21,366 bases of DNA, taken from IMG/VR virus record IMGVR_UViG_3300020207_000202, positions 1 to 21,366 of that record; one strand, 5' to 3'. This DNA comes from a virus. The notes beneath the pieces are model-generated. The model did not search any database, had not been told where the DNA came from, and was given only the letters and a program-made list of their open reading frames with translations. Made by a program: the position numbers and the translations under genes. Below are positions 6,998 through 21,366 of this stretch, piece after piece. Position 1 is the first letter of the stretch, and each line of letters begins with the position of its first letter.

Positions 6998-8614
6998 ATG
7001 GCAACTCCTGTTTTAAACAATGGAATTTTCCTAAGAGATACTAGCTACAAAGCAAGTTCTCATGTTGATTCTTATCACCTTACCCAGATGCTTGGTTCTG
7101 CCGAGCCTATGGATATGGGACCAGTTGATCTTTGGGCTATGACCCAGAAGGTAGAAATGCCTTTGTATCAAATGGCTTCTTTTGGTGGAAAGAATACAAT
7201 CTTGGTAGACAACGCACGTGGTGAGTACAAATGGCAAACTCCTATCGCTCAAGATTTACCTTTTGTTGTAGCTGACATTGAGCCAGCAAATGACGCAAAA
7301 GGTGTTGATGGTACTACCTTCAAGATCAAGCTTTCTAAAAGAGCTTTTGGTCACGGTGATATCATTACTTATGATAAGTACAATGGTTTGGAAATGTACA
7401 TCACTGCTGATGACATTATTCCTGCTGGTGACGGATTCATCTACACTGTTCAGTTGGTAAACAACAACAGTGCTGTTTCTTTAGATAACTCTTACTTGGC
7501 TGCTGGAACTAAGTACTTCAGAAAAGGTTCTGCACGTGGTGAATACGGTGAGAGATTCTCTGACATTGAAACTGGTTCTGGATTCCGTGAGTTCTACAAC
7601 TTTGTTGGTGGAGCTGAAGCACACGTACACTACTCTATTTCTAGCCGCGCTGATTTGATGATCAAAGGTGGTTTGAATGCTGATGGTACTGTGCCTGTAA
7701 CGGAAATCTGGAGAAACTTTGATGAAAGCGGTAACCCTTCTGTTTCTTCTATTGAAGAATTGGTAGCTAGCATGGGTAAAGCTGGTGCACGTCAAGCATT
7801 TGAAGAAGGTAGATTAAGCAGAACTTTCGTTACTAATATGGAAGCAGCTCACCTTAGCAAAATTGCTAATGACATTGAAACTTACCTCATGTGGGGTAAA
7901 GGTGGTAAGGTTAAGCAAGACGGACCAGATGATATCAGATTGTCTGTAGGTTTGTGGGCTCAATTGGATAACTCATTCAAGAGAGTATACAACAAATCTT
8001 CTTTCACTCTTGATATGTTCAAGTCTGAATTGTACAACTTCTACCAAGGTAAAGTAGAATTTAAAGGACCAGACCCACAGCGTTCTTTGGTTGTTCAAAC
8101 TGGTATCGGTGGTATGCAGTTGATCAACAAGGCTATTGCTGATGAGGTATATGGTTCTGGTTTAGTTCAGAATGCATCTGACATTGGTGCTGTTAAAGGT
8201 AGTGGTATGGATCTTGACTTCGGTTTTGCTTACACCAGCTTCACTATTCCTTTCTTGGCAAATGTTAAGTTTGTATTGAATCCTGCATTTGATAATCTTC
8301 ACACTAATGATGTTGAGAATCCATTGATTGATGGACGTCCTTTGAGCTCTTACAGCTTCATCATCTTTGACGTGACTGAAAATGGTAATGATAACATTCA
8401 CTTGTTGAAGTTGTCTTGGGATAACCAATTGAAGTGGTTCTACCAAAACGGTACTATGGACTACATGGGACGTACTCAAGGCTTTGCTTCTTCTGGTAAC
8501 TTTAATGGTTACAGAGTTTACATGACTCAAACCATGCCAGCAGTATGGGTGAAAGATCCTACCAAAGTGTTGAAAATTGTTATGAGAAACCCTGTAACTG
8601 GTGGTTCATTCTAA
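6998..8614 (+). CDS. Major capsid protein
   Basis: Called from position (portal, scaffold-like, then this), its 538-residue size, and strongly biased codon use. Leu is mostly TTG, Gly GGT and Arg often CGT, and Asn, Phe and Tyr codons often end in C, unlike the AGA/TTA-rich packaging genes; this marks a highly expressed protein. The N-terminal region includes GKNTILVDNARGEYKWQTP (about 68-86). The chain then alternates strands and Gly-rich turns and ends in a compact region with VWVKDPTKVLKIVMRNP. An HK97-like fold is the family expectation but cannot be proven by eye. A terminator 18 bases after the stop closes the unit. The ATG leader is AATCAATT with no Shine-Dalgarno. Confidence 0.8.
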   Translation: MATPVLNNGIFLRDTSYKASSHVDSYHLTQMLGSAEPMDMGPVDLWAMTQKVEMPLYQMASFGGKNTILVDNARGEYKWQTPIAQDLPFVVADIEPANDAKGVDGTTFKIKLSKRAFGHGDIITYDKYNGLEMYITADDIIPAGDGFIYTVQLVNNNSAVSLDNSYLAAGTKYFRKGSARGEYGERFSDIETGSGFREFYNFVGGAEAHVHYSISSRADLMIKGGLNADGTVPVTEIWRNFDESGNPSVSSIEELVASMGKAGARQAFEEGRLSRTFVTNMEAAHLSKIANDIETYLMWGKGGKVKQDGPDDIRLSVGLWAQLDNSFKRVYNKSSFTLDMFKSELYNFYQGKVEFKGPDPQRSLVVQTGIGGMQLINKAIADEVYGSGLVQNASDIGAVKGSGMDLDFGFAYTSFTIPFLANVKFVLNPAFDNLHTNDVENPLIDGRPLSSYSFIIFDVTENGNDNIHLLKLSWDNQLKWFYQNGTMDYMGRTQGFASSGNFNGYRVYMTQTMPAVWVKDPTKVLKIVMRNPVTGGSF

Positions 8615-8632
8615 TAACAGATATTAATAACC

Positions 8633-8669
8633 AAAAGGGGAGGTGGGTAAAACCTCCTCCCTTTTTTTT
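8633..8669 (+). terminator. Rho-independent terminator after the major capsid gene
   Basis: A G-rich arm (AAAAGGGGAGGTGGGT) and a complementary C-rich arm (ACCTCCTCCC) form a strong stem with small bulges around a short A-rich loop, followed by eight Ts at 8662-8669. The As before the stem could make it work in both directions. It lies 18 bases past the MCP stop. Confidence 0.85.
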
Positions 8670-8682
8670 AAATTAAAATACC

Positions 8683-8841
8683 ATGGCCCTTGATAAATTT
8701 AAACAAAAAAACCGTGATGAGGTTCTTGACAAAGCGTCAAGATCAGAGCATGGCTTAGCCAAATTTGCTCACTTAAATGAACTAGTTAAATATATTAACG
8801 CTTTAGAACAAAGAATTGCAGCTCTTGAAGAAGCTAATTAA
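8683..8841 (+). CDS. Small 52-aa helical protein after the capsid gene
   Basis: A short ORF beginning MALDKFKQKNRDEVLDKASR and ending in a heptad-like helix (LNELVKYINALEQRIAALEE, 31-50), consistent with a small coiled-coil protein. The ATG follows an AT-rich leader (AAATTAAAATACC) typical of this phage's starts and lies 13 bases beyond the MCP terminator, so it would be expressed by read-through or from a weak unseen promoter. I do not recognise a family. Its position next to MCP would suit a small head-associated or assembly-assisting protein, but that is only inference. Composition and leader make it a credible gene. Confidence 0.6.
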   Translation: MALDKFKQKNRDEVLDKASRSEHGLAKFAHLNELVKYINALEQRIAALEEAN

Positions 8842-8857
8842 TTTTAAAGCAGTTTTA

Positions 8858-8940
8858 TAACTCAAATAACTTTTGCCAGGTTAACCCCTGGCATTAGAAA
8901 TATTAATAATAAGTATGGCCAATTGGCTATATTTGAGTTG
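8858..8940 (+). ncRNA. Structured intergenic RNA element (predicted three-way junction)
   Basis: In this 83-base gap three helices nest neatly. The outer helix pairs AACTCAAA (8859-8866) with TTTGAGTT (8932-8939), plus a U-G pair at 8858/8940. Inside are a 7-bp hairpin TGCCAGG/CCTGGCA (8874-8880 with 8887-8893, loop TTAACC) and a 7-bp hairpin TATGGCC/GGCTATA (8914-8920 with 8925-8931, loop AATT, one G-U pair). No U-tract follows, so it is not an ordinary terminator. It starts 17 bases after the 52-aa gene and ends 39 bases before the next ATG. A cis-acting leader, an RNase processing site or a small RNA are possible; tRNA and hammerhead signatures are absent. Confidence 0.5.
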
Positions 8941-8979
8941 AAAAACAAGTATTATTAATCTAAAAAAACCAATTGAAAG

Positions 8980-9996
8980 ATGAGTGATTACACTATTGTA
9001 GAAAAGTATCAGCAAAACAAAAGTCAAGTTATTGCTATACGCCCTTTCTTTGATCCTAGTAAACAAAACATGGGATTAGAGAATTATGGAATGGCACTTC
9101 ATGAAGGAGTGTGGCATGAAGAATCTTTAGCCTGTTTAGAGTTAAACGGTGTTAAAAGATATGTAACAGGATTGAATGAGTTTGCTCCTGATGTAAAAAG
9201 ATTGTCACCTGGAGAACGTGAAGTTAAAATAAAAGAAATCAGATCAGTTGTTGCACAACTTGAAGCTGAACTTGCGGCTAATGTTATTGATCCAGAAGAC
9301 AAAGACTTTTGGAATAAAGTAACATTATTAAAGCCAGATAATGATAAGTTCTGGTCCCGTATTAGTTTGAGATGTGGTAATGACCCTGTTTTCTTGGATC
9401 CTGAAAAAGATCCATATGATTTAATTAAAATCTATGCTATTAATGCAGGAGGTTTTTCTATTGTAGCCAGATCACTTAAGGATGCAAAGAAATCAGCTAA
9501 TCCTCCTAAATTTTATTTAGATCAGCTTGAAGAAACCATCAGTGAAAGAACACAATACACTAAACTAAAAAATAAAGCATTGGTTGAGTTACAAAAACTA
9601 TATGACGGAGATACTACTAAGCTTATGTATGTAGCTAAAGCTGTTGACGTTGATAGTGTTCAGTATACTAAATCAACTCCCAATGATATTATGTATGAAA
9701 ACATGGACATGTTCATTAATGGTGAGGGTACAGAATCTAATAAGAAAAGAGCAGCTCAGTCATTTATTGAAGCAGCAGCAGATTCTATGGAAAATCTAAA
9801 AGTAAGAGCTCTTGTTAAAGATGCCTTATTTTACAGATTCCTTGTGCCAAAATCTTCAGGATGGATTGAGACTGTAGATAGCTCAGAAAAATTAGGCAAG
9901 AGACCTAACGAAGCAATTGAGTATCTAAAAGATCCAAGTAATGAAGACACTCTGATGAGTTTGATGTCCAAGGTTGAACCCTATTGGAACGCATAA
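8980..9996 (+). CDS. Unidentified virion-module protein, 338 aa
   Basis: I do not recognise the family. The protein is soluble-looking, with no signal peptide or membrane segment. It begins MSDYTIVEKYQQNKSQVIAI, contains a long charged helical stretch around residues 75-100 (SPGEREVKIKEIRSVVAQLE), and ends with a mixed region (PNEAIEYLKDPSNEDTLMSL, then VEPYWNA). Codon use is ordinary for this phage (AGA, TTA), unlike the highly biased MCP, so modest expression is likely. It sits between the capsid gene and a probable connector, 11 bases before the latter, and follows the structured element at 8858-8940. Head-completion, neck or assembly function is plausible from position only. Confidence 0.7.
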   Translation: MSDYTIVEKYQQNKSQVIAIRPFFDPSKQNMGLENYGMALHEGVWHEESLACLELNGVKRYVTGLNEFAPDVKRLSPGEREVKIKEIRSVVAQLEAELAANVIDPEDKDFWNKVTLLKPDNDKFWSRISLRCGNDPVFLDPEKDPYDLIKIYAINAGGFSIVARSLKDAKKSANPPKFYLDQLEETISERTQYTKLKNKALVELQKLYDGDTTKLMYVAKAVDVDSVQYTKSTPNDIMYENMDMFINGEGTESNKKRAAQSFIEAAADSMENLKVRALVKDALFYRFLVPKSSGWIETVDSSEKLGKRPNEAIEYLKDPSNEDTLMSLMSKVEPYWNA

Positions 9997-10007
9997 CACA
10001 TTAGATA

Positions 10008-10709
10008 ATGAATAATCAAACTCTACAAATTAAATTAAAGCAAAGGCTTAACAAGCTTGCAAGCAATGACTATGATAATATTGAGTGCTGGCAAATTGTA
10101 GAGGCTTTTAATAAAGCTCAAGTTGAATGGGTAAGACGTCAACTGCATGGTAATAATTTATACCGTGAGGGTGATGAGATGTCTAAAAGAAGAATTGATG
10201 ATTTACAGATTCTTTTAGAAGAAACCACTTTACCTGGTTCACAGCAAGATAACTATTTTGAGTCATCTAGTATTCCTGCCAATTACATGGAATACAAAAG
10301 GGTTACTGCATACGCTACTAGTGAGTGTTGTCCAGATCCAAGATCAATGACTGTGTATTTATCAGAAGAGGCTAATGTTAATTTAATTATGAGAGACCCT
10401 CTTAAAAGACCAGACTATGAATGGGGTGAAACATTCTGTACATGGTTGGGTAATAATGTAAGAGTTTATAAAAGAGAGTTTGATATTACAGATGTGATTT
10501 TAACTTATTATAGACAACCTGTTAATATAGAAATAGCAGGTTGCCAAAACCCTTACACAGGTGCTCAAACACTTGTAGATGTAACATGTGAATTTAAAGA
10601 TGATATTGTTGAGGTTCTTTTGGATGAAGCCGCATCATTAATTGCGGGTGATATTGAGAACTTTAATCAGTATCAAACTAATCAGCAATCAGCAGAAAGA
10701 AATAACTAA
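10008..10709 (+). CDS. Probable head-tail connector/adaptor protein
   Basis: The 233-residue protein opens with an amphipathic helical region (NIECWQIVEAFNKAQVEWVR, about 24-43), followed by a charged helix (GDEMSKRRIDDLQILLEE). A beta-rich centre includes SIPANYMEYKRVTAY, MTVYLSEEANVNL and NVRVYKREFDI, leading into a strand ending in LTYYRQPV. A final helix (DDIVEVLLDEAASLIAGDIE, about 198-217) follows. Helix-beta-helix proteins of this size directly after the capsid genes are typical adaptor or ring proteins that bridge the portal to the tail, and the wording resembles proteins I recall from Bacteroidota phages. The assignment is therefore by layout and resemblance, not a defined motif. Its stop overlaps the next ATG by one base, implying coupled translation. 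Confidence 0.6.
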   Translation: MNNQTLQIKLKQRLNKLASNDYDNIECWQIVEAFNKAQVEWVRRQLHGNNLYREGDEMSKRRIDDLQILLEETTLPGSQQDNYFESSSIPANYMEYKRVTAYATSECCPDPRSMTVYLSEEANVNLIMRDPLKRPDYEWGETFCTWLGNNVRVYKREFDITDVILTYYRQPVNIEIAGCQNPYTGAQTLVDVTCEFKDDIVEVLLDEAASLIAGDIENFNQYQTNQQSAERNN

Positions 10710-11185
10710 TGGAACACAGAAGATCTTTAAAGACACAGCCTTCTAAAGGTTTATCTAGACCAACAACAAAAACATCAACAATGGAAAGATCTCCTGAGAT
10801 GAAAGAAGTTGATGGTATGACCGCAGAGTTAGTTGTTGAAATAATGAATGCTGCAACTAGTTTTCACAAGTTACATTTATCTGTAACTGGAGATGGTTCA
10901 TATGCACAACATAAAGCACTTAATGAAATTTATGATGCATTACCTGATTTAGCAGATACAATTGCTGAAGGATATCAGGGTGCTTGTGAAGTTATATTAA
11001 ACTATCCAGATAAAGCACCAGCAAGGCTTATGAGCATTGAAGGTGCTGTGGAATATATGAGAACATTATCTATGCAAATTGCTGATTTGCAGAAAGTAAT
11101 GCCTCATACAGAGGTGGTAAATAACCTTGATCTTATTAAAGATCAGATAAACTCAGCTAAGTACAAATTATTATTCCTTAGCTAG
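10709..11185 (+). CDS. Dps/ferritin-like protein
   Basis: This 158-residue protein carries the Dps ferroxidase signature in order and spacing. His56 (SFHKLHLSVTG), His68 (AQHKALNEIY), Asp83 and Glu87 (LADTIAEG) are separated by 12, 15 and 4 residues, as are His51, His63, Asp78 and Glu82 of E. coli Dps. The second acidic ligand (Asp67 in E. coli) is Asn72 here, so the site may be partly altered. Dps proteins form 12-mers that oxidise and store iron and protect DNA. Length fits the family. The first 24 residues are basic (RRSLKTQPSKGLSRP) and could bind nucleic acid or the virion; an alternative start at Met25 exists. The start shares one base with the connector stop. I recall Dps-like families in other phages, possibly DUF5856, but this needs a search. 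Confidence 0.7.
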   Translation: MEHRRSLKTQPSKGLSRPTTKTSTMERSPEMKEVDGMTAELVVEIMNAATSFHKLHLSVTGDGSYAQHKALNEIYDALPDLADTIAEGYQGACEVILNYPDKAPARLMSIEGAVEYMRTLSMQIADLQKVMPHTEVVNNLDLIKDQINSAKYKLLFLS

Positions 11186-11202
11186 TTGTTATTTTTCACA
11201 AA

Positions 11203-11223
11203 TTTTTGTATATTATATATGTG
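11203..11223 (+). promoter_or_regulatory. Promoter-like motif, copy 2 (before the 414-aa protein)
   Basis: TTTTTGTATATTATATATGTG lies 46 bases before the ATG at 11269, matching the motifs at 5613 and 12586. It overlaps the left arm of a hairpin (11215-11224 pairing with 11230-11239, one mismatch, loop ATGAC), so an initiating transcript could carry a stem near its 5' end. The rest of the 83-base gap is AT-rich with no ORF. Confidence 0.55.
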
Positions 11224-11239
11224 CATGACGCACAAATAT
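11215..11239 (+). promoter_or_regulatory. Leader hairpin overlapping promoter motif
   Basis: ATATATGTGC pairs with GCACAAATAT around the loop ATGAC, ten positions with a single A-A mismatch. It lies between the promoter-like motif and the highly codon-biased 414-aa gene. It could stabilise the 5' end of an abundant mRNA or be an operator. Not seen in the same form at the other two motif copies. Confidence 0.4.
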
Positions 11240-11268
11240 TTATTTGTTAAACATTAATTTTTTAGAAA

Positions 11269-12513
11269 ATGGCTTATTTTAATCATGCTTTTTACAAAAG
11301 CTTTTTAGCAACAGACGCTTCTGCTGCTAATGGAACTAAGACTTCTGCTTTGGCTGCTGGTCAATTAGCTTTGGTTGATGGTTCAGACTGGACGGCTCAC
11401 GCATCCGGTGCTTTCCCTACCCCTGGTATGGCTTATTTAGTGCAAGGTTCTTTGCACGGTAGTGACACTGTAGGTGGAAATAAATTCCACGGTGGTTACG
11501 CAGAATCAGTAAAATCAAAAGGAATCAATCCTAGATACTTGACTAGAGTATGGGAATCTTCTTGTATTCAGGCTACTGCTGCTACTGCTTCTATTGCAGT
11601 TGGTTCTAAGTGTAACCCTTGTGGTGAAATCTTTATGTTGCGTTTGGACGTTAAAGGTGCCCCTGCATTGCGTTTCTTGAATCACAATGCTTATGCTATT
11701 GGTGATTCTGCTCACGTAGCAATGGATGCTGACGGTGTTCCTTACGAGCAATCTTCACTTTGTTGTGCTGATGGTCAAGAGTTTTTGGATCCTGCTGTTG
11801 CACTTGCAAGAGCTGCTCACATGTTGATTTCTGATCCTATTCTTGAGCCTTTCGTTAAAGAGAAAACTGGTGGTGGTATGACCGTAGTTGTTGGTGGTGT
11901 TTCTACTGTTTACACTATTGAAGAAGTTCTTGATGGTACTTACTCTCCTTCTGTTGATCCTGTTGCTGATGCAGTAACTGCTAAAGTTACCTTTGAAGGT
12001 GCTTATGTAGATACTAAGTTTGGTGACTGTTCTTTTGACAGCCGTGATTACTACGGTAAAGAGCCTATCCAATTGGTAGCTTCTTTGTTGGATGAAACTG
12101 GTGATTCTTGTAGCGAATGTGGTGTAGCATCTAGCACTCCTGGTACTATGCAGCAAACTGTTGGTGAAACTGTACTTAGAAAACTTTTGTTGACTGAGTC
12201 TTACGGACAAGCTCCTTTCCACCAAGGTAACGTTGATTCTGTACGTATGCGTGAGATTGAAGGTTCTGAGGAAGTAATTAGTGCTATTGACCGCAGTGCT
12301 TTGTACAAGACTTACTATGTACAACACAGCGTTCCTAGATTGAACAATGCAACTAGCGTATTTGACAATGAGCAGTACGTTTATGAAATCTTTGTGAAGT
12401 GTGATGATGAACAAACGCAAGGTGAAATTGAAGCGTTGTTGGATATCTTGGTTGCTGCTGCTAATGCTTCTGGCAATCCAATGACAAGAGAAGAAACTAT
12501 TGATCAACAATAA
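11269..12513 (+). CDS. Probable major structural protein (tail tube/sheath candidate), 414 aa
   Basis: No family is recognised by motif, but expression signals are strong. The gene has its own promoter-like site, its own terminator and the same biased codon choice as the MCP (GGT, TTG, CGT, GCT, TAC). The protein is Gly/Ala/Ser-rich and beta-rich, with a distinctive N-terminus (MAYFNHAFYKSFLATDASAA), HGSDTVGGNKFHGGY near residues 64-78, paired cysteines (CNPCGE, SSLCCADG, CSECG), and an acidic C-terminus. Abundant phage proteins outside the head are normally tail tube, sheath or decoration proteins. Its place after the connector genes and before the fibres suits tail tube or another major tail or neck component. 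The cysteine pairs are unusual and could bind metal or form disulfides. Confidence 0.6.
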   Translation: MAYFNHAFYKSFLATDASAANGTKTSALAAGQLALVDGSDWTAHASGAFPTPGMAYLVQGSLHGSDTVGGNKFHGGYAESVKSKGINPRYLTRVWESSCIQATAATASIAVGSKCNPCGEIFMLRLDVKGAPALRFLNHNAYAIGDSAHVAMDADGVPYEQSSLCCADGQEFLDPAVALARAAHMLISDPILEPFVKEKTGGGMTVVVGGVSTVYTIEEVLDGTYSPSVDPVADAVTAKVTFEGAYVDTKFGDCSFDSRDYYGKEPIQLVASLLDETGDSCSECGVASSTPGTMQQTVGETVLRKLLLTESYGQAPFHQGNVDSVRMREIEGSEEVISAIDRSALYKTYYVQHSVPRLNNATSVFDNEQYVYEIFVKCDDEQTQGEIEALLDILVAAANASGNPMTREETIDQQ

Positions 12514-12536
12514 TTAGATCAATAATAATGCTTTAT

Positions 12537-12569
12537 AAAAGGGTGGGGGAGAAATCTCCCACCTTTTTT
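12537..12569 (+). terminator. Rho-independent terminator after the 414-aa gene
   Basis: AAAAGGGTGGGGGAGA and TCTCCCACC form a GC-rich stem with a small bulge, closed by a short A-rich loop and followed by six Ts (12564-12569). It starts 24 bases after the stop, and the third promoter-like motif begins 17 bases after it, so this is a clean boundary between transcription units. It resembles the terminator after the MCP in having As before and Ts after the stem. Confidence 0.85.
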
Positions 12570-12585
12570 ATTTCTAATTATGATC

Positions 12586-12608
12586 TTTTTTTTGTATATT
12601 ATCTATGT
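12586..12608 (+). promoter_or_regulatory. Promoter-like motif, copy 3 (before the tail/fibre genes)
   Basis: Eight Ts, then GTATATTATCTATGT, 30 bases before the ATG at 12638 and directly after a terminator. It matches the copies at 5613 and 11203. The palindrome TAGTATACTA follows at once (about 12608-12617). As the first promoter-like site after a terminator it would drive the tail-protein and fibre genes. Confidence 0.55.
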
Positions 12609-12637
12609 AGTATACTATTTATATAAAAAAAATTATC

Positions 12638-13189
12638 ATGGCTGATAAGCATATATTAAGTTTGGAGGTTCCCACAGTGGCTAACTGTGAAATACTTAGT
12701 ATAAAAGATACTAGTCAGTACACAGATAAGCTTGATATAGATTGTGGTGAACTATTAATTACTTCACCTGGATATAATGTCCCTGTTCTTATAAAGGTAG
12801 ATCCTGATTTTGATCTTAACCTTAATGGTTGTTTGCTAGGTACACAGACAGAACACTGTGGTACTATGAGAACAGCATTAGCAGATGGAATCTATATTAT
12901 TAAATACAGCGTTGCACCTGTAAGTAAAGTTTATGTGGAGTACAATCATTTAAGAATAACTAGTCTTTTAACTTCTTATTACAACACATTGTGTCACATT
13001 GATGTGAATGATTGTGAACCTCATAGTGAAAGAAAAGATCTTATTGATGAGATGAAATATATTAGGACAGTAATTGACGCTGCGGTTGCAAAGGTTGAGT
13101 ACTGTAATAGTCCTAAAGAAGGAATGGCTTTGTATAACTATGCAAAGAAAAGACTTCAAAAAATATCTTGTAAAACTGTAGGATGTTAA
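12638..13189 (+). CDS. Cys-rich virion-module protein, 183 aa
   Basis: I do not recognise the family. The N-terminal two thirds look beta-rich (HILSLEVPTVANCEILSIKD, LLITSPGYNVPVLIKVD, ADGIYIIKYSVAPVSKVYVE). The last third is helical and charged (ERKDLIDEMKYIRTVIDAAV, then GMALYNYAKKRLQKI). Nine cysteines are spread through the chain (for example CEIL, DCGELL, EHCGT, LCHIDVNDC), many for a cytoplasmic phage protein, and it ends in CKTVGC. The gene heads the unit begun by the third promoter-like motif. A sandwich-plus-helix protein before the fibres might be a tail or baseplate component, but no activity can be assigned. The start is preceded by an A-run leader, with no Shine-Dalgarno. Confidence 0.7.
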   Translation: MADKHILSLEVPTVANCEILSIKDTSQYTDKLDIDCGELLITSPGYNVPVLIKVDPDFDLNLNGCLLGTQTEHCGTMRTALADGIYIIKYSVAPVSKVYVEYNHLRITSLLTSYYNTLCHIDVNDCEPHSERKDLIDEMKYIRTVIDAAVAKVEYCNSPKEGMALYNYAKKRLQKISCKTVGC

Positions 13190-13209
13190 ACTTTAAATAA
13201 ACCAACATT

Positions 13210-13338
13210 ATGACTTGTAAAAAATGTAACAAAACTTTTAGCTGTGGTTGTCAAAAAACACAAGCTTCAGATGGCTCAACTGTCCACAAGACATGTTTAG
13301 GAGAATATGAAGCCATGCTACAAGCAACAAAAAAATAA
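13210..13338 (+). CDS. 42-aa zinc-ribbon-like microprotein
   Basis: A short ORF encoding MTCKKCNKTFSCGCQKTQAS, then DGSTVHKTC and a short helical tail. Cysteines at 3, 6, 12, 14 and 29, with His26, give CxxC and CxC pairs plus a later C, a layout suited to binding a single zinc ion. The ATG lies 20 bases after the stop of the previous gene, in an AT-rich leader (AATAAACCAACATT), and the TAA is one base before the ATG of the next gene, so it fits the operon well. Role unknown; possibilities are a nucleic-acid or protein-binding clip. It competes with an alternative longer start of the next gene (13307), and the fit here favours this reading. Confidence 0.65.
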   Translation: MTCKKCNKTFSCGCQKTQASDGSTVHKTCLGEYEAMLQATKK

Positions 13339-13339
13339 A

Positions 13340-13861
13340 ATGGATAGTGCCTTAATTAAGAAGATTGAAACAGAAAAGAAGTTTGCTACTGCTGTATATA
13401 AAAACTTCATGTCTTTAAGATATGGGATGGATCCATGTTGTCTTGTTGATATGGAAGCAGCTTCTATTAAGAAGTGGCTTTGTGATTGGGATGACCTAAC
13501 ACTTCAAGTTGCAACCCCAAGTGAAGATTTGAAAACAACAACACAAAGTATAATTGTTTGTCAGACTCCAACAGAGACTGGTGTAACATCATGGACAAGT
13601 GCTGATATAGATGCATTAATTAAGAGAATTGAAATTCTTGAAACTACTGCACTAGAAGATGAAAAAGATCTTAATTATGTACATGATCAACCTGTTGCAA
13701 GTACAACTTGGACAATTATTCATAACCTCAATAAGAAACCTTCTGTTAGAATTGAAGACTTATTGAAGAATGATATTATGGGTGAAATAGACTATACGGA
13801 TAATAATACAGTAACAATAAAGTTTGCAATTCCTGTTGCTGGAAGTGCATACTTAAACTAA
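13340..13861 (+). CDS. Tail-associated protein with C-terminal adhesin-like domain
   Basis: I place the start at the ATG at 13340 rather than 13307, because the longer form would overlap the zinc-ribbon ORF and its first 11 residues (MKPCYKQQKNK) look like another frame of that gene. The 173-residue product has a helical N-terminal half (MDSALIKKIETEKKFATAVY), a double cysteine (DPCCLVD), and a short helix (IDALIKRIEILETT). Its C-terminal domain runs from about residue 120 to the end (STTWTIIHNLNKKPSVRIED, GEIDYTDNNTVTIKFAIPVA, GSAYLN). That final domain is a form often seen at the ends of phage tail proteins, with the WxIxHNL and NTVTIxF strands. It probably belongs to the tail tip or baseplate; receptor contact is inference. 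Confidence 0.65.
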   Translation: MDSALIKKIETEKKFATAVYKNFMSLRYGMDPCCLVDMEAASIKKWLCDWDDLTLQVATPSEDLKTTTQSIIVCQTPTETGVTSWTSADIDALIKRIEILETTALEDEKDLNYVHDQPVASTTWTIIHNLNKKPSVRIEDLLKNDIMGEIDYTDNNTVTIKFAIPVAGSAYLN

Positions 13862-13900
13862 TAAGCAACAAAAATAAAAACAATTAAATAAATAACAATT

Positions 13901-15763
13901 ATGGCTCTTAAGTATTTGTCTCATTTAGAGACGTTAAACATTGACATGCAAGGGTACGAGTTACAAAACGCTGTAATTCACACTCTTACCACTGCAACAA
14001 GACCTGCAAGTCCTACGGCAGGTCAGATTATTTACAACGCATCAACTGGTTCATTAGAAGTATATGATGGATCTGGATGGGTTTCTGCTTCAGGTGATAT
14101 TACTGCGGTAACTGTATCAAGTGGTACTGGTCTTACTGGTAGTGCTTCTGGTACTTCAGGTGCAGTATCTGGTACTATTTCTCTTGATTATACTGGTACA
14201 AACAACTTTATTGATTCTGCAACGAATCTTGAAGGTACTGATATTGCAACAGGTGATACTATTGTATACCATGATGCTACAGACAATAACGTTAAAAAAG
14301 GTTTTGTTTCTGACTTACCTTTTACAAACAATACAGGTACTGTAACATCTGTTAGTGGTACTGGTACTGTAAGTGGATTGACCTTAAGTGGTACTGTAAC
14401 TTCAAGTGGTAACTTAACTCTTGGTGGTACTTTAGTACTTACAAGCAGTCAAGTAACTACAGCTTTAGGTTACACTCCTTACGATAGTACAAACCCTAAC
14501 GGGTATACTTCATTTGCTGAACCGGGTATTTTCTCTGGTGGTGGTACTCCTACTCTAGCTAGTGGTGTAACTGCAGCTGAAATCAGAGCTTTGATTGGTG
14601 CCGGTACTTCTAGTACTACAGGTACTGTTACTTCTGTAGCTGTATCGGGTAGCAACGGTATTACTGTATCAGGTTCTCCTATTACAGGTGCTGGTACTAT
14701 TAGCCTTGGTTTATCTAACTTGGCAAATAGCGTTCTTGCAAATGATGATGTAACATTTGGTACTACAACTGTAGCATTGGGTGGTAGCTCTACTTCTATT
14801 GCTGGCCTAACTGCATTGGATTTTGCAGCTGGCGATAGAACTATTGGTGCTTCTATTGGTGCAAATAATTTGACTCTTGCCGGTTCAACTTCTACGGTTG
14901 TTATTCCTGGTAACTTGACTGTAAATGGTACTACAACTACTGTTAACTCAAATCAAGTTAATATTGGTGATGCAATTCTTACATTAAATGCTGATGAAAC
15001 AGGTGCTCCTTCTCAAAACGCAGGTTTTGAAGTTGAAAGAGGTACTTCTGCAAATGTTCAGTTTATATGGAATGAAACTGATGATAGATGGGATTTTGGT
15101 GCTTCTTATGATGTACGTGCTAATGCATTTATTGGTGATTTAGATGGTACTGCTGCAGATGCTAGTAAATGGACTAATGCTAGAACTATTACTCTTGGTG
15201 GTGATGCTTCTGGTTCTGTATCTATTGATGGTTCTGCTAACGTAACTCTTACCGTAAGTGTTGATGGTGTACAAGCTAACTCTGTTGCTCTTGGTACTGA
15301 TACTACTGGTAACTATGTTGCAACTGTATCTGGTTCTGGTGCAATTAGCGTTAGTGGTTCTGGATCTGAAACAGCTGCTGTAACTGTTTCTATTGCTGAT
15401 TCTAGTACTACTGCAAAAGGTGCTGTTGAATTGGCAACTTCTGCTGAAGCCATTACGGGTACTGATACTGCACGTGCTGTAACTCCTAAAGCGGCTAGCG
15501 ATATGGTTGCTGATAGAATCAGTAATTATAGAGTAACAGATACTATGCCTGCAGGATCTTTAGTTCATCCTGTTGCTCATGGTATGGGTACCGCATTTGG
15601 TGTTAGTGGTGCTGTTTCTCCTATTATTGTAAGCTGTTTTGATGCAATTACAGGAGAAATGTTGATGATTGAAACAGTTCAAATTTCTATTGATGATTTT
15701 GAATTGAGATCAGTTGCACCTACTGCAAATGATATTTTAGTTTCTGTAGTATTTGCAGGATAA
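13901..15763 (+). CDS. Tail fibre protein, 620 aa
   Basis: Rich in Gly, Ser, Thr and Val, with short repeats (GTVTSV, SGTG), as in trimeric beta-helical fibres. The N-terminus (MALKYLSHLETLNID) resembles that of the next gene (MAIKFLSAIDQ), so both probably attach to the same site. Around residues 347-400 is a block of the type VNSNQVNIGDAILTLNADET with EVERGTS and DDRWDFG, found in many environmental phage fibres. At about 508 is a fibre repeat (VELATSAEAITGTDTARAVT). The last 70 residues form a separate compact domain (SLVHPVAHGMG, then FELRSVAPTANDILVSVVFAG), a candidate tip. Likely role: host recognition or a fibre shaft. No chaperone domain is present at this end, unlike the neighbouring fibre. 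Confidence 0.8.
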   Translation: MALKYLSHLETLNIDMQGYELQNAVIHTLTTATRPASPTAGQIIYNASTGSLEVYDGSGWVSASGDITAVTVSSGTGLTGSASGTSGAVSGTISLDYTGTNNFIDSATNLEGTDIATGDTIVYHDATDNNVKKGFVSDLPFTNNTGTVTSVSGTGTVSGLTLSGTVTSSGNLTLGGTLVLTSSQVTTALGYTPYDSTNPNGYTSFAEPGIFSGGGTPTLASGVTAAEIRALIGAGTSSTTGTVTSVAVSGSNGITVSGSPITGAGTISLGLSNLANSVLANDDVTFGTTTVALGGSSTSIAGLTALDFAAGDRTIGASIGANNLTLAGSTSTVVIPGNLTVNGTTTTVNSNQVNIGDAILTLNADETGAPSQNAGFEVERGTSANVQFIWNETDDRWDFGASYDVRANAFIGDLDGTAADASKWTNARTITLGGDASGSVSIDGSANVTLTVSVDGVQANSVALGTDTTGNYVATVSGSGAISVSGSGSETAAVTVSIADSSTTAKGAVELATSAEAITGTDTARAVTPKAASDMVADRISNYRVTDTMPAGSLVHPVAHGMGTAFGVSGAVSPIIVSCFDAITGEMLMIETVQISIDDFELRSVAPTANDILVSVVFAG

Positions 15764-15777
15764 TATAGAATAAATAA

Positions 15778-15797
15778 TTAGATTTGTAAAAATCTGA
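15778..15797 (+). promoter_or_regulatory. Small hairpin before the long fibre gene
   Basis: TTAGATTT pairs with AAATCTGA around the loop GTAA, eight positions including one G-U. It lies 10 bases before the ATG at 15808 and is not followed by a U-tract, so it is unlikely to end transcription. It might affect ribosome access or mRNA processing; it could also be chance in AT-rich DNA. Confidence 0.35.
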
Positions 15798-15807
15798 ATA
15801 TAAAGAT

Positions 15808-18800
15808 ATGGCTATTAAATTTTTATCTGCTATTGACCAAGGAGCTTATCAACTGCCATCAGTTGATGGCTCTGCCGGTCAAGTGCTAACAACAGATGGT
15901 AGTGGCAATGTAACATTTCAAAGTGTTGCTGCTTCTGCAAACTATTATTTGAGTGGTGCTTCATTTAATACTGGAAACGGTGTTTTGACCTTAACAGTAA
16001 GTGGAGCTGCAAATCAGACTGTTGATTTGGATGGTAGATATGCATTAAGTAGTCATACGCATTCTTATGATAATTATCAGTCCTGGAATCTTAAAACAAA
16101 TGGGATTCAAAGGACTACCGTACAGTCTGGGGGAACATTAGATCTTGTAGCGGGATCTAATGTCTCTCTCAGCTACGGAGCTGGAGGTGTTGTAACAATT
16201 GCCTCCACAGATACAAATACTGATACCAATGATATAGATTATATCAATGCTGCATCATTTAACACAAGTACTGGTGTTATTACAGGTACTGGTGTTGGTA
16301 ATGCAGGATTTACTGTGGATATTGACGGTAGATACTTACCACTTGCAGGGGGTACAATTACAGGTAATTTACAGGTTAATGGTTATATCAAGAGTAATGG
16401 TCAACAACTTGTATTAAATGCTGGAGAATCCGCAGGTTACGCTACGGGACAAACCTCAGAAATTGTATATATCAATGCCGAGGCGGGATTAGAGATTTTA
16501 TCTTCACCCGACAATTGGTCAACAGGATGGGCAGGACGTAATAGTGCGTACATTAACAGAGCAGATGCCACATCATACTTGCCAGGTACTTTAACAGTAA
16601 ATGGACATGGTAACTCCTCACAATGGAATACTGCATACGGTTGGGGTGATCATGCTAGTGCTGGATATCAACCTGCTGGAAACTATTTTACAGATGGTGA
16701 TACAGTATTAAACATGGCCAACAATGATGGTTTTGTGTATGATGACACTACCAACACTATGTATGTTAAGCTAGATGGTACTAACCGTGAGATTTATCAT
16801 ACGGGAATTTTTACTGATAATTCAGCTAACTGGAATACTGCTTATAGCTGGGGTAATCACGCGTCCGCAGGCTACTTAACATCTTATACAGATACAGATA
16901 ATTATGTAGATTCAGTTGCTTTTAATACTACAACTGGTGTTCTTACACTTGGTAGAACAGGAGCTCTTACTGATTTAACTGTTGATTTAGACGGTAGATA
17001 CCAAGGAGCGGGTACATATAATACCATCATAGGAACCGATAGTGATATTAGTGCCACAGGTGCAACTGTAATTAGTGCAATTAATATGACTGATGGTGTT
17101 ATTCAGTCACATAGTACCAGAACCTTAACTCTTGCTAATTTAGGCTACACTGGTTCTGCTACAGCAGATGATTATGGTGGCTGGAGAATCAGTGATTCTT
17201 CAAATACAGAAGTTATTGGTGCCGGTGATACACTAACAGTTGTTGGTGCTGGCGCGGCAAATGTTCAATATGACACAAGTACAAATACACTTACAATTAC
17301 AAGCACTGATACTAACACTAATACTACATATAGTGCTGGAAGCGGTTTATCATTAAGTGGTACTACATTTAGTCACGCTGATACTTCATCTCAATCATCA
17401 GTTAATAACGGTGGTAGAACTTATATTCAAGATATTACATTAGATACCTACGGTCACATTACAGGTATTGTTTCTGCTACAGAAACTGTAACTAATACAG
17501 ATACTATAACTAGAGTTGGTACATCTGGAAATGAAGCCAGTGGAACTATAACTTTGATTGCTGGTGGTGCAACCACTATTTCTCAATCTGGTACATCTAT
17601 TACCATTAGCTCTACAGACACTAATACAGACACTAATAACTATTTAACAGGTGCTAGTTTTAGTACAAGCAATGGTATACTTACGCTAACAAGACAAGGT
17701 CTTGGAGATATTACTGTTGATTTAGATGGTAGATTTACAGATAACGGATATGCTGATGCACTTAACCAGCATTTAAGAACATCTGATTCTCCATCATTTG
17801 CTGGTATGACCATTAATGGTAACCTTACTGTCACAGGTACAACAGTTACTGATCAGGTAGAAGTTGTTTCTACATCAAACGGTATTTTGTTTGAAGGTAG
17901 TGCAGCAGATGCATATGAAGGATTATTATTAGCTGGCACTTTAACAGCAGATAGAACATACACTTTACCAAATGCTACGGGTACAGTAGCACTGACTTCT
18001 GATATTCCAACGGTTAATAATGCAACACTTACCGTGCAAGGCACAGGTATTCTTAGCGGATCCGGTACATTTACGGCAAATGCTTCTAGTAATGCTACTA
18101 TTAGTATTAGTCATAATGACACTTCTACATTAAATGGAGCCTATGGTGGTTCTAATAATGGAGTTGTTATAGAAGATATTACAGTTGATGCGTATGGTCA
18201 TGTTACTGCAATTGGTACAAGAGATCTAGATGGTAGATTTGATAACTATGGTGGTTGGAGAATTAGTGATACTGTAACTACAGAATTATTAGGAGCAGGC
18301 GCAACATTAAATGTTGTAGGAGCGGGTGCATCAACTGTTCAATATGATGCTTCAACAAACACTTTAACAATCACAAGTACAGATACAAACACTGATACTA
18401 ATACAACATATTCTGCAGGCAGCGGTCTTACTTTAACTGGAACAACATTTAGTCACACAGATACAAGTAGTGCTTCTTCTGTAAACAACTCAGGAAGAAC
18501 GTACATACAAGATATTACAATTGATACATACGGTCACGTAACCGGGATATCTTCAGCCACTGAAACAGTAACAAATACTGATACAAACTATTACTTAAAT
18601 GGAGCTTCATTTAATACATCAGATGGTGTATTAACTTTAACAGTATCAGGTACTAGTAATCAAACAGTTGACCTTGATGGAAGATATCAACTTGCCGGTA
18701 CATACAATACTATAATTGGTACAGACTCAGATATTAACACATCTGGTGCTACTATTATTGATAATATATATGTTACTGATGGTGTTATTACAAGTATGGG

Positions 18801-19374
18801 TACACGTACTCTTACTCCTGGTGATATTGGTGCAGCTTACTATGATCATTTTAGATCATTAGGTACTACTGCATTTACAGCAGGTGGTGGAAGTAATTCA
18901 TCTATTACTACAGACCAGTTAATTTCTGAGATGGAAGGTGATGGTGCATTTGATTCTTATACTTCTACATTTAAAACTAGTTGGTCATATGCAGGTAATG
19001 ATAATCTTAGTAATGCTGGAAACTTTACAGAAACTGCCGGTACTTCATGGTTAACTTGGACAGATGATTCTAGTGACAGCACCCGTGGAAATATTACTGC
19101 TCTTGCAATTGCTCCAAATACTGGTGGTTCTGCTTATGGGGTTTATATTTATAATGATCAAGGTTCTGGTTATTCTCCAGGATGGAGGGAAGTTTGGACT
19201 GATAAAACTCTTAACCCTATTGTATCTGCTACTGTATCAAATGATACAACTACTTATGTAAAAGCAGATGGAAGTTCATTTTCATTAACAACTAGTGATG
19301 CTAACTCTAATACATATGTAACCGGAGCATCATTTAATACTGGTGACGGTGTCCTTACATTAACAAGAAACTAG
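15808..19374 (+). CDS. Long repetitive tail fibre, N-terminal part (frame broken at the 3' end)
   Basis: The 1188 residues are a chain of fibre modules: LTLTVSGxxNQTVDLDGRY, NTAYGWGDHASAGY, TGNLTVTGTTV, GTYNTIIGTDSDI, YGGWRISD, and repeated TNTTYSAGSGL...SGTTFSH blocks with IQDITLDTYGHITGI. The N-terminus MAIKFLSAIDQGAYQLP resembles that of the previous fibre. The reading ends at TAG 19372 in the middle of a module, after LTLTRN. In other copies this continues through eight to ten residues into VDLDGRY, and that text resumes at 19371 in another frame. So this is probably the first part of one fibre of about 1,750 residues that ends at 21086. Alternatives are programmed frameshifting, real decay, or a sequence/assembly error in a repeat. 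Confidence 0.75.
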   Translation: MAIKFLSAIDQGAYQLPSVDGSAGQVLTTDGSGNVTFQSVAASANYYLSGASFNTGNGVLTLTVSGAANQTVDLDGRYALSSHTHSYDNYQSWNLKTNGIQRTTVQSGGTLDLVAGSNVSLSYGAGGVVTIASTDTNTDTNDIDYINAASFNTSTGVITGTGVGNAGFTVDIDGRYLPLAGGTITGNLQVNGYIKSNGQQLVLNAGESAGYATGQTSEIVYINAEAGLEILSSPDNWSTGWAGRNSAYINRADATSYLPGTLTVNGHGNSSQWNTAYGWGDHASAGYQPAGNYFTDGDTVLNMANNDGFVYDDTTNTMYVKLDGTNREIYHTGIFTDNSANWNTAYSWGNHASAGYLTSYTDTDNYVDSVAFNTTTGVLTLGRTGALTDLTVDLDGRYQGAGTYNTIIGTDSDISATGATVISAINMTDGVIQSHSTRTLTLANLGYTGSATADDYGGWRISDSSNTEVIGAGDTLTVVGAGAANVQYDTSTNTLTITSTDTNTNTTYSAGSGLSLSGTTFSHADTSSQSSVNNGGRTYIQDITLDTYGHITGIVSATETVTNTDTITRVGTSGNEASGTITLIAGGATTISQSGTSITISSTDTNTDTNNYLTGASFSTSNGILTLTRQGLGDITVDLDGRFTDNGYADALNQHLRTSDSPSFAGMTINGNLTVTGTTVTDQVEVVSTSNGILFEGSAADAYEGLLLAGTLTADRTYTLPNATGTVALTSDIPTVNNATLTVQGTGILSGSGTFTANASSNATISISHNDTSTLNGAYGGSNNGVVIEDITVDAYGHVTAIGTRDLDGRFDNYGGWRISDTVTTELLGAGATLNVVGAGASTVQYDASTNTLTITSTDTNTDTNTTYSAGSGLTLTGTTFSHTDTSSASSVNNSGRTYIQDITIDTYGHVTGISSATETVTNTDTNYYLNGASFNTSDGVLTLTVSGTSNQTVDLDGRYQLAGTYNTIIGTDSDINTSGATIIDNIYVTDGVITSMGTRTLTPGDIGAAYYDHFRSLGTTAFTAGGGSNSSITTDQLISEMEGDGAFDSYTSTFKTSWSYAGNDNLSNAGNFTETAGTSWLTWTDDSSDSTRGNITALAIAPNTGGSAYGVYIYNDQGSGYSPGWREVWTDKTLNPIVSATVSNDTTTYVKADGSSFSLTTSDANSNTYVTGASFNTGDGVLTLTRN
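17173..17502 (+). repeat. Fibre module repeat, copy 1
   Basis: Encodes YGGWRISD, a GAG...VGAGA core with VQYDTSTNTLTITSTDT, then SGTTFSH and YIQDITLDTYGHITGI. It recurs at 18247-18585, and in shortened or diverged form at 19557-19760, 20127-20292 and about 20352-20562. DNA copies differ at many synonymous sites, so the duplications are old or maintained by protein-level selection. Confidence 0.7.
18247..18585 (+). repeat. Fibre module repeat, copy 2
   Basis: Second full copy: YGGWRISD, LLGAGATLNVVGAGA, VQYDASTNTLTITSTDT, then SGLTLTGTTFSH and YIQDITIDTYGHVTGI. Nearly the same protein text as copy 1 with frequent third-position changes. Such repeats make this stretch prone to recombination and to mis-assembly. 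Confidence 0.7.
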
Positions 19375-19469
19375 ATGGACGTTATCAATTAGCAGGAACG
19401 TACAACACTATCATAGGAACAGACACTGACATTGATACTTCAGGTGCTACTATTATAGATAACATCTAT

Positions 19470-21086
19470 ATGACAGATGGGGTTATTACCTCACATGGTA
19501 CTAGAACACTAACATTAGCTAACTTAGGATATACAGGTGCTACAAATGCTGATGCATATGGTGGATGGAGAATTTCTGACGGAGCTACTACTGAACTATT
19601 GGGTGCTGGTGCAACTCTTACAGTTAATGGTACTGGGGCTACAACAGCAATTTATGACGCTGCAACAAATACATTAACAATTAACTCTACAGATACCAAT
19701 ACAAACACCACTTATAGTGCTGGTAATGGTATTAGCCTTTCAGGCACTACATTTAGTGTAGCAGCTGGTACTGGTTTATCTCAAACAAGCACAGGTTTAG
19801 CATTAGCAACTGCCGGTGCTGGAGCCGGAACATACGGTTCTACAGGTAATGGTACTAAGATAGATACAATTACTCTTGACGCTTATGGAAGAATAACTGC
19901 TGTAGCAACCGGAGCAACGGGTGATATTTTAGGGGTTACCGCTGGTACGGGATTATCTGGGGGTGGTACTTCAGGTACTGTGACAGTTTCTTTAAGTCAT
20001 TTAGGTCTTGAATCTTTAGGAGATCCTAATGCTGATCGTGTGGCTTTCTGGGACGATAGTGCGGGTGCATTTAAATGGTTGACAATGGGTTCTAATTTAT
20101 CTATATCAGGAACTACGTTAAATGCCACAGATACAAATACCAATACAACTTATACTGCTGGCGGTGGTTTAACACTTAGCGGTACAACTTTTAGTCATAC
20201 AGATACATCTTCTCAGGCTTCAGTAAATAACTCTGGTAATACAGTAATTCAAGATATTACTGTTGACACATATGGTCATATTACTGGATTAGCTTCTAAA
20301 ACTTTAACTTTATCTGGATTAGGATACACGGGTGCATCTAATGCGGATTTATATAACTATTGGACAATTGATGCAGGTGGTCAACAAACCAATGTTACAA
20401 CACAAAGTATAATAACATTTGTAGGAACGGGAGCAACTAATGTTCAATATGATCCTGTTCTTAAGCAACTTACAATTGATTCCACAGACACTAATACAAA
20501 CACAACGTATAGTGCTGATGGTAACTACGGTCTTACATTATCTGGCACTACGTTTAGACTAGAGGATGATAGACGTAGAAACAGTAGTACTACTGATATT
20601 TATACAGGTAATACTCATGACTATACATTCTATGACGCAAGTATAGGTATCCGTTGGTATACAGCTGGTGCTGAAGAAATGCGTTTACAAGATAATGGTA
20701 CACTCCATGTAGATGGTGATGTTGTTGCTTATTCTAGCACAGTTTCTGACAGAACCTTTAAGGATGATATTGTTACTATAACAGATGCAATAGATAAGGT
20801 TAAAAAGCTAAGAGGTGTTGAGTACGTATGGAATAGCGGTTATAGAAAAGGTAAAAAAGATTTAGGTCTTATTGCACAAGAGGTTCAAGAAGTATTACCA
20901 GAAATTGTACACGAGCATGAGATGCCTCTTATGGAAGATGCAGAAGCTGGTAAAACTTATAAGACCGTAGACTATGAAAAAATGGTTGGCGTGCTCATAG
21001 AAGCAATGAAGGATCAACAAGTAATGATTGATACTTTAACTGCTAAATTAGAGACATTAGAAAAAAACTTTAATTCAAGACTGTAA
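19470..21086 (+). CDS. Tail fibre C-terminal part with S74-type intramolecular chaperone
   Basis: This 538-residue ORF continues the fibre modules of the preceding gene in a different frame; homologous text (LDGRYQLAGTYNTIIGT) begins at 19371, before its first ATG. Residues 1-360 are repeats like those upstream. Residues 366-425 approach the end (YTGNTHDYTFYD, DNGTLHVDGDVVAYSSTV). From Ser426 the endosialidase-type chaperone (peptidase S74) begins: SDRTFKDDI, LRGVEYVWN, DLGLIAQEVQEVLPEIV, YKTVDYEKMVGVLIEAMK, and a final coiled coil. In that family the domain trimerises the fibre and cuts itself off before the Ser; Ser426, Asp427 and Lys431 are in place. It could be translated separately from 19470, but an isolated C-terminal part would lack the attachment end. 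Confidence 0.75.
   Translation: MTDGVITSHGTRTLTLANLGYTGATNADAYGGWRISDGATTELLGAGATLTVNGTGATTAIYDAATNTLTINSTDTNTNTTYSAGNGISLSGTTFSVAAGTGLSQTSTGLALATAGAGAGTYGSTGNGTKIDTITLDAYGRITAVATGATGDILGVTAGTGLSGGGTSGTVTVSLSHLGLESLGDPNADRVAFWDDSAGAFKWLTMGSNLSISGTTLNATDTNTNTTYTAGGGLTLSGTTFSHTDTSSQASVNNSGNTVIQDITVDTYGHITGLASKTLTLSGLGYTGASNADLYNYWTIDAGGQQTNVTTQSIITFVGTGATNVQYDPVLKQLTIDSTDTNTNTTYSADGNYGLTLSGTTFRLEDDRRRNSSTTDIYTGNTHDYTFYDASIGIRWYTAGAEEMRLQDNGTLHVDGDVVAYSSTVSDRTFKDDIVTITDAIDKVKKLRGVEYVWNSGYRKGKKDLGLIAQEVQEVLPEIVHEHEMPLMEDAEAGKTYKTVDYEKMVGVLIEAMKDQQVMIDTLTAKLETLEKNFNSRL
19557..19760 (+). repeat. Fibre module repeat, partial copy 3 (after the frame break)
   Basis: Encodes YGGWRISDGATTELLGAGAT, then an AIYDAATNTLTI block and TNTTYSAGNGISLSGTTFS. 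The IQDIT half is replaced by a different Gly/Ala-rich segment. Its presence in the second reading frame shows that the two ORFs are parts of one fibre. Confidence 0.65.
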
Positions 21087-21366
21087 TGCCACTTCAGAGC
21101 TCAGGTCAAATAAGTATAAGTCAGATTAATGCAGAACTTGGATTATCAAATTCAGATTCAAGTTTAGCTAATTTATCTGCTGCTGCAAATAATACAGATC
21201 CTTGTAATAGTGGATCATTACCTACATCTAATGCAGCACCACATTCTATGGCAGAGTTTTATAACTATGATCATAACTGTACAAGTGGACCAACTCTTAT
21301 ACAATGTACTATTGCAGGACCTTTTCCAATTTCTGATGAAGCTTGTGCGTTTGGTACTGAATTTTG
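21086..21366 (+). CDS. Tail protein, N-terminal part (runs off the window)
   Basis: The ATG overlaps the stop of the fibre gene by one base (TAATG) and the frame is open to the window edge, giving about 93 residues. It begins MPLQSSGQISISQINAELG, a form seen at the start of many phage tail and receptor-binding proteins, followed by a Ser/Asn-rich stretch and SMAEFYNYDHNC, the second half of that N-terminal unit. Further Gly/Pro/Cys-rich sequence follows (TLIQCTIAGPFPIS). The remaining protein is outside the window, so its end domain and role cannot be judged. Confidence 0.75.
   Translation, partial: MPLQSSGQISISQINAELGLSNSDSSLANLSAAANNTDPCNSGSLPTSNAAPHSMAEFYNYDHNCTSGPTLIQCTIAGPFPISDEACAFGTEF

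Follow-up and report, generated by a model that had tools for sequence, protein, structure and literature searches.

A 22-base frameshifting deletion probably separates a long tail fibre from its S74 chaperone end in a crAss-like phage contig

The window analysed here is the entire linear IMG/VR record IMGVR_UViG_3300020207_000202 (21,366 bases), and the terminase, portal and crAss-type capsid protein that it encodes mark it as a fragment of a crAss-like phage (Crassvirales). The capsid protein matches the Pfam family Crass_capsid at 111.7 bits (cut-off 27), and the large terminase (phrog_6681) and portal (phrog_6547), both well matched, adjoin the capsid gene; a match to Pfam P22_portal stays below its cut-off. 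Searched by tblastn, the capsid protein finds Cellulophaga phages phi17:2 and phi4:1 and the gut phage csAssE-Sib at 24-26% identity, and is distantly related to the capsids of the two Cellulophaga phages. A megablast search of the phage collection returned no match to the window.

The features of the fibre locus are collected in Table 1. The intact fibre-like gene that serves as a positional anchor upstream of the fibre gene also precedes it in five related contigs (L087, L089, L091, L092, and L093). A downstream duplicate of this 620-aa gene was considered and rejected, the equal length being a coincidence.

Table 1. Features of the fibre locus, in window coordinates
Feature	Position	Strand	Remarks
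Intact fibre-like gene, 620 aa	13901..15763	+	Upstream of fibre gene; positional anchor
Fibre gene, 5' part, 1188 aa	15808..19374	+	N-terminal MAIKFLSAIDQGAYQLP and repeat modules; ends LTLTRN-TAG
Overlap with both frames open	19347..19374	+	No XXXYYYZ heptamer
Deletion junction	19369..19374	+	Sister's 22 bases missing between 19371 and 19372
Fibre gene, 3' part, -1 frame	19371..21086	+	571 aa from 19371; 538 aa from first ATG at 19470
Peptidase_S74 chaperone domain	20745..20910	+	Pfam match from residue 459 of 3' part

The original prediction described a 1188-aa ORF that ends in the middle of a repeat module, with the expected continuation beginning at 19371 in the -1 frame and running on to an S74 end, and this description was confirmed. 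The TAG at 19372-19374 stops the ORF mid-module, and the module goes on in the -1 frame as LDGRYQLAGTYNTIIGT, with the stop at 21086 and Peptidase_S74 at the end. The -1 frame is open from 19347, and its first ATG, GTG or TTG lies only at 19470, so that the 3' part read from 19371 has no standard start for 99 bases. The 1188-aa ORF has no Pfam or PHROGs match, and the 3' frame matches tail-fibre families as well as the S74 domain. A search of the window's own record for a further copy of the junction recovered other modules only, at 69-81%.

At its C-terminal end, the 3' part matches Peptidase_S74 (PF13884) at 57.1 bits against a cut-off of 22 (E 2.3e-15); weak matches to the T5-type long tail fibre 6f45 and the MYRF ICA 7dc3 were also seen. 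In S74 fibres such as T5 pb1, folding is guided by a trimer of the C-terminal chaperone, which is afterwards removed by cleavage at a serine (PMC4690869). The window carries the motif SDRTFK, in which the serine (20745-20747) stands five residues ahead of the lysine (20760-20762), the same spacing as the pb1 pair Ser1264/Lys1269 (PMC4690869), and this spacing fits S74 autocleavage.

The nature of the break is best seen by comparison with a sister contig, IMGVR_UViG_3300017951_000039 (L007 and L087), which aligns to window positions 7808-21366 (13.6 kb) at 99.7% identity. The two sequences differ by 15 substitutions and a single indel, which falls precisely on the junction and consists of 22 bases that the sister has and the window lacks. 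In L087 the fibre gene is a single 1766-aa ORF (L087 8001-13301) with the same start and N-terminus as the window's 5' part and no internal stop; the module that reads ...LTLTRN-stop in the window reads ...LTLTRNSGSVTVDLDGRY... there. The S74 chaperone is therefore in cis with the fibre in the sister and out of frame with the 1188-aa ORF in the window, which bears out the earlier view that the attachment end and the chaperone have been separated. That more than one base had been lost was also correctly foreseen, but the proposed length of about 25 or 28 bases was not, because it was derived from non-allelic modules of 28 residues, whereas the allelic module has 27 and the sister has 22 extra bases (L087 11564-11585). 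The loss takes 7.3 codons from one beta-rich repeat module.

Each junction allele is seen in one contig only, the deleted one in the window and the intact one in L087. Exact searches of viral contigs recovered nothing besides the window's own record for the deletion junction and only the known sister for the intact junction, and an exact search of prokaryote genome contigs with the sequence next to the junction gave no match. A third near-identical contig, 3300018418_000073 (L088), stops at window position 17739, before the junction, and cannot vote; it ends within the fibre gene, though the window has no long exact repeat there. This contig also differs from the window by a one-base A indel at 8962-8968, between the genes at 6998-8614 and 8980-9996.

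Within the fibre gene, seven of the eight SNPs that separate window and sister are synonymous and nothing else would disable the gene, which makes a recent break probable. The silent changes point to purifying selection on the gene until recently. Past the break, the 1.7 kb of the 3' part carries no sister SNPs where fewer than two would be expected, so that their absence is a poor guide to the time since the downstream part became free. Five of the sister substitutions fall within 59 bases (17879-17937), four of them silent and four at an A in the window; this cluster is perhaps a small recombination tract. A diversity-generating retroelement (DGR) was rejected as its source, the changes being mostly at A but silent at four of five sites, with no RVT_1 found.

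More distant relatives allow the ancestral state to be judged. The syntenic gene is one ORF with an S74 end in five lineages (L087, the sister; L089/L090; L092/L015; L093/L094; and L095). L093, from another contig that is just 76-87% identical in aligned upstream stretches, carries the same intact module peptide, NSGSVTVDLDGRY (also given as GVLTLTRNSGSVTVDLDGRY), in an unbroken ORF of 1630 aa. A mid-module break like that of the window was found in none of the relatives compared (the L087, L089-L095, and L098 groups). Because these five lineages keep fibre and S74 in one ORF and no relative has such a break, the ancestral gene, judged from these alignments, is a single 1766-aa ORF ending in an S74 intramolecular chaperone, and the window state is derived.

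Other fibre arrangements were observed during this comparison. In L091/L034 (3300025759_000062; L091:8001-13684, L034:3841-8019), the one fused gene at the locus is replaced by two module-rich fibre genes that flank a gene for a 576-aa protein of unknown family, the S74 end lying on the second; here recombination has split or joined fibre genes. L098:7290-10559 holds a 1089-aa fibre ORF ending ...GFNNDAGT-stop in which an S74 match was not found; its fibre end may be truncated or of an alternative form. At L042:5296-5364 (IMGVR_UViG_3300028388_000041), a perfect tandem duplication of 34 bases (TTCTACTACTATTACTGCAGGTAATGGTCTTACT twice) breaks up an S74 fibre gene that is unrelated to the present one, also a frameshift within a fibre repeat; a single-copy sister of this gene was not found in viral contigs.

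How the 22 bases were lost is constrained by the scarcity of repeats. Only a 2-base CT microhomology lies at the junction, making the exact placement of the deletion ambiguous by as much; exact repeats shared by the 150-base flanks reach 7 bases at most, and the longest anywhere in the window measures 17 bases. At these lengths, one would not expect homologous recombination between modules, nor a k-mer collapse. Among the origins first proposed, a real multi-base deletion thus gains support from the near-identical contig with an intact frame and microhomology from the CT at the junction, whereas repeat recombination and assembly collapse in repeats find none. A replication or end-joining slip between the CT microhomologies would produce the deletion, perhaps helped by a weak hairpin. 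Over the missing segment, such a hairpin has nine stem pairs, one of them G-T, and its predicted DNA fold of -4.1 kcal/mol is among the lowest 3% of the gene's 30-base stretches. Agreement with the deletion ends (eight of nine pairs) requires a 5-base end tolerance that was picked post hoc (1.8% of positions) and is unremarkable at 4 bases (8%), so that hairpin skipping as the deletion route is suggestive only. An origin by slippage from TCTGGAT to its imperfect repeat TCTAGAT was rejected, as it would remove 20 bases rather than 22.

Taken together, we put at roughly two in three the probability that the break is a recent 22-base frameshifting deletion in the gene for the phage's long trimeric tail fibre, a loss of function like that of lambda stf. 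It is possible, though we think it unlikely, that the sampled population is intact and that the contig acquired the deletion from a minor variant or as a library or assembly artefact, such as a chimeric read or one that skipped the hairpin. The sister allele is intact, the hairpin overlaps the missing segment, and a metagenome contig gives a single consensus, all of which would suit such an artefact. The short exact repeats argue against a k-mer repeat collapse, however, and the window lacks the scattered indels that error-prone reads would leave, bar the one outside genes relative to L088.

Readings in which the broken gene still works as a system are much less probable. Two separately translated fibre subunits, the second made from the ATG at 19470 or from a non-standard start, would have a parallel in L091/L034, where an S74 end also lies on a second ORF and the fibre with the MAIKFLSAI N-terminus lacks S74. 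Those genes are genuinely separate, however, with their own starts (the second MATITGSKRLL...) and the 576-aa gene between them, while the window's second part opens mid-module upstream of any standard start and the gene is fused in the sister; we regard a functional split as very improbable. We give equally little credence to a programmed device, whether reversible phase variation, -1 frameshifting or stop readthrough, through which some virions would regain the complete fibre. The frames would indeed be reunited by a -1 slip at AAC-TAG, at a cost of just seven residues of one module, but the overlap of the two frames holds no X-XXY-YYZ slippery heptamer, as had been noted at the outset, and readthrough of the TAG alone remains in the wrong frame. 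Recoding, one of the options raised originally, is further undercut by the sister and relatives, which are open without an in-frame stop. Nothing was found that speaks positively for phase or host-range switching: no direct repeats flank the site to allow reversible slippage, the arrangement is not common to relatives, and RVT_1, the mark of a DGR, was unmatched in six related records (three of about 117 kb) with positive controls working, these records being fragments in which absence is not proof. Reassignment of TAG was rejected as well, as the sister frame has no internal stop and a sense TAG would leave the frame broken; in addition, a second gene of the window (10709-11185) seems to use TAG as its stop. 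As findings go, this one is ordinary: a frameshifting deletion, and neither a switch nor a recoding device.

If the frameshifting deletion is real, the 1188-aa product is a truncated chain cut off from its out-of-frame trimerisation chaperone and would probably fail to fold into a normal fibre; the second ORF, for its part, lacks an attachment end. By analogy with lambda stf, the variant may then be a mutant that has lost its fibre, a loss either tolerated or favoured because adsorption is slower; alternatively, it may be a defective genome maintained by co-infection. That deleted and intact alleles coexist as a maintained polymorphism, with selection for loss where hosts grow densely or attached to surfaces and with intact fibres coming from co-infecting siblings, seems doubtful. 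The case is chiefly a matter of annotation, in that automatic annotation will report two fibre genes in a lineage that possesses a single one. A deletion borne out by reads would provide lambda stf loss with a natural counterpart in an uncultured phage, and an opportunity to measure adsorption selection in marine crAss-like phages.

Among known systems, the fibre gene resembles fibres with an intramolecular chaperone, such as T5 pb1 and the K1F endosialidase, in having a C-terminal Peptidase_S74; unlike in those proteins, the window's chaperone is out of frame with the fibre that it would fold. The nearest precedent for the break itself is lambda stf, where a small frameshifting lesion splits a gene that is intact in a near-identical phage, as it is in our sister contig: laboratory lambda has an stf frameshift and is without the side tail fibres that Ur-lambda possesses (PMC3509688). 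Large-plaque stf mutants of lambda are known as well, and biofilm-like conditions readily select for frameshifts in the gene: of 21 sequenced isolates, 19 were mutated in stf, 15 of these by a frameshift (PMC2762979). Unlike the lambda lesion, the one described here spans 22 bases in an uncultured crAss-like phage, and lambda Stf is a different protein.
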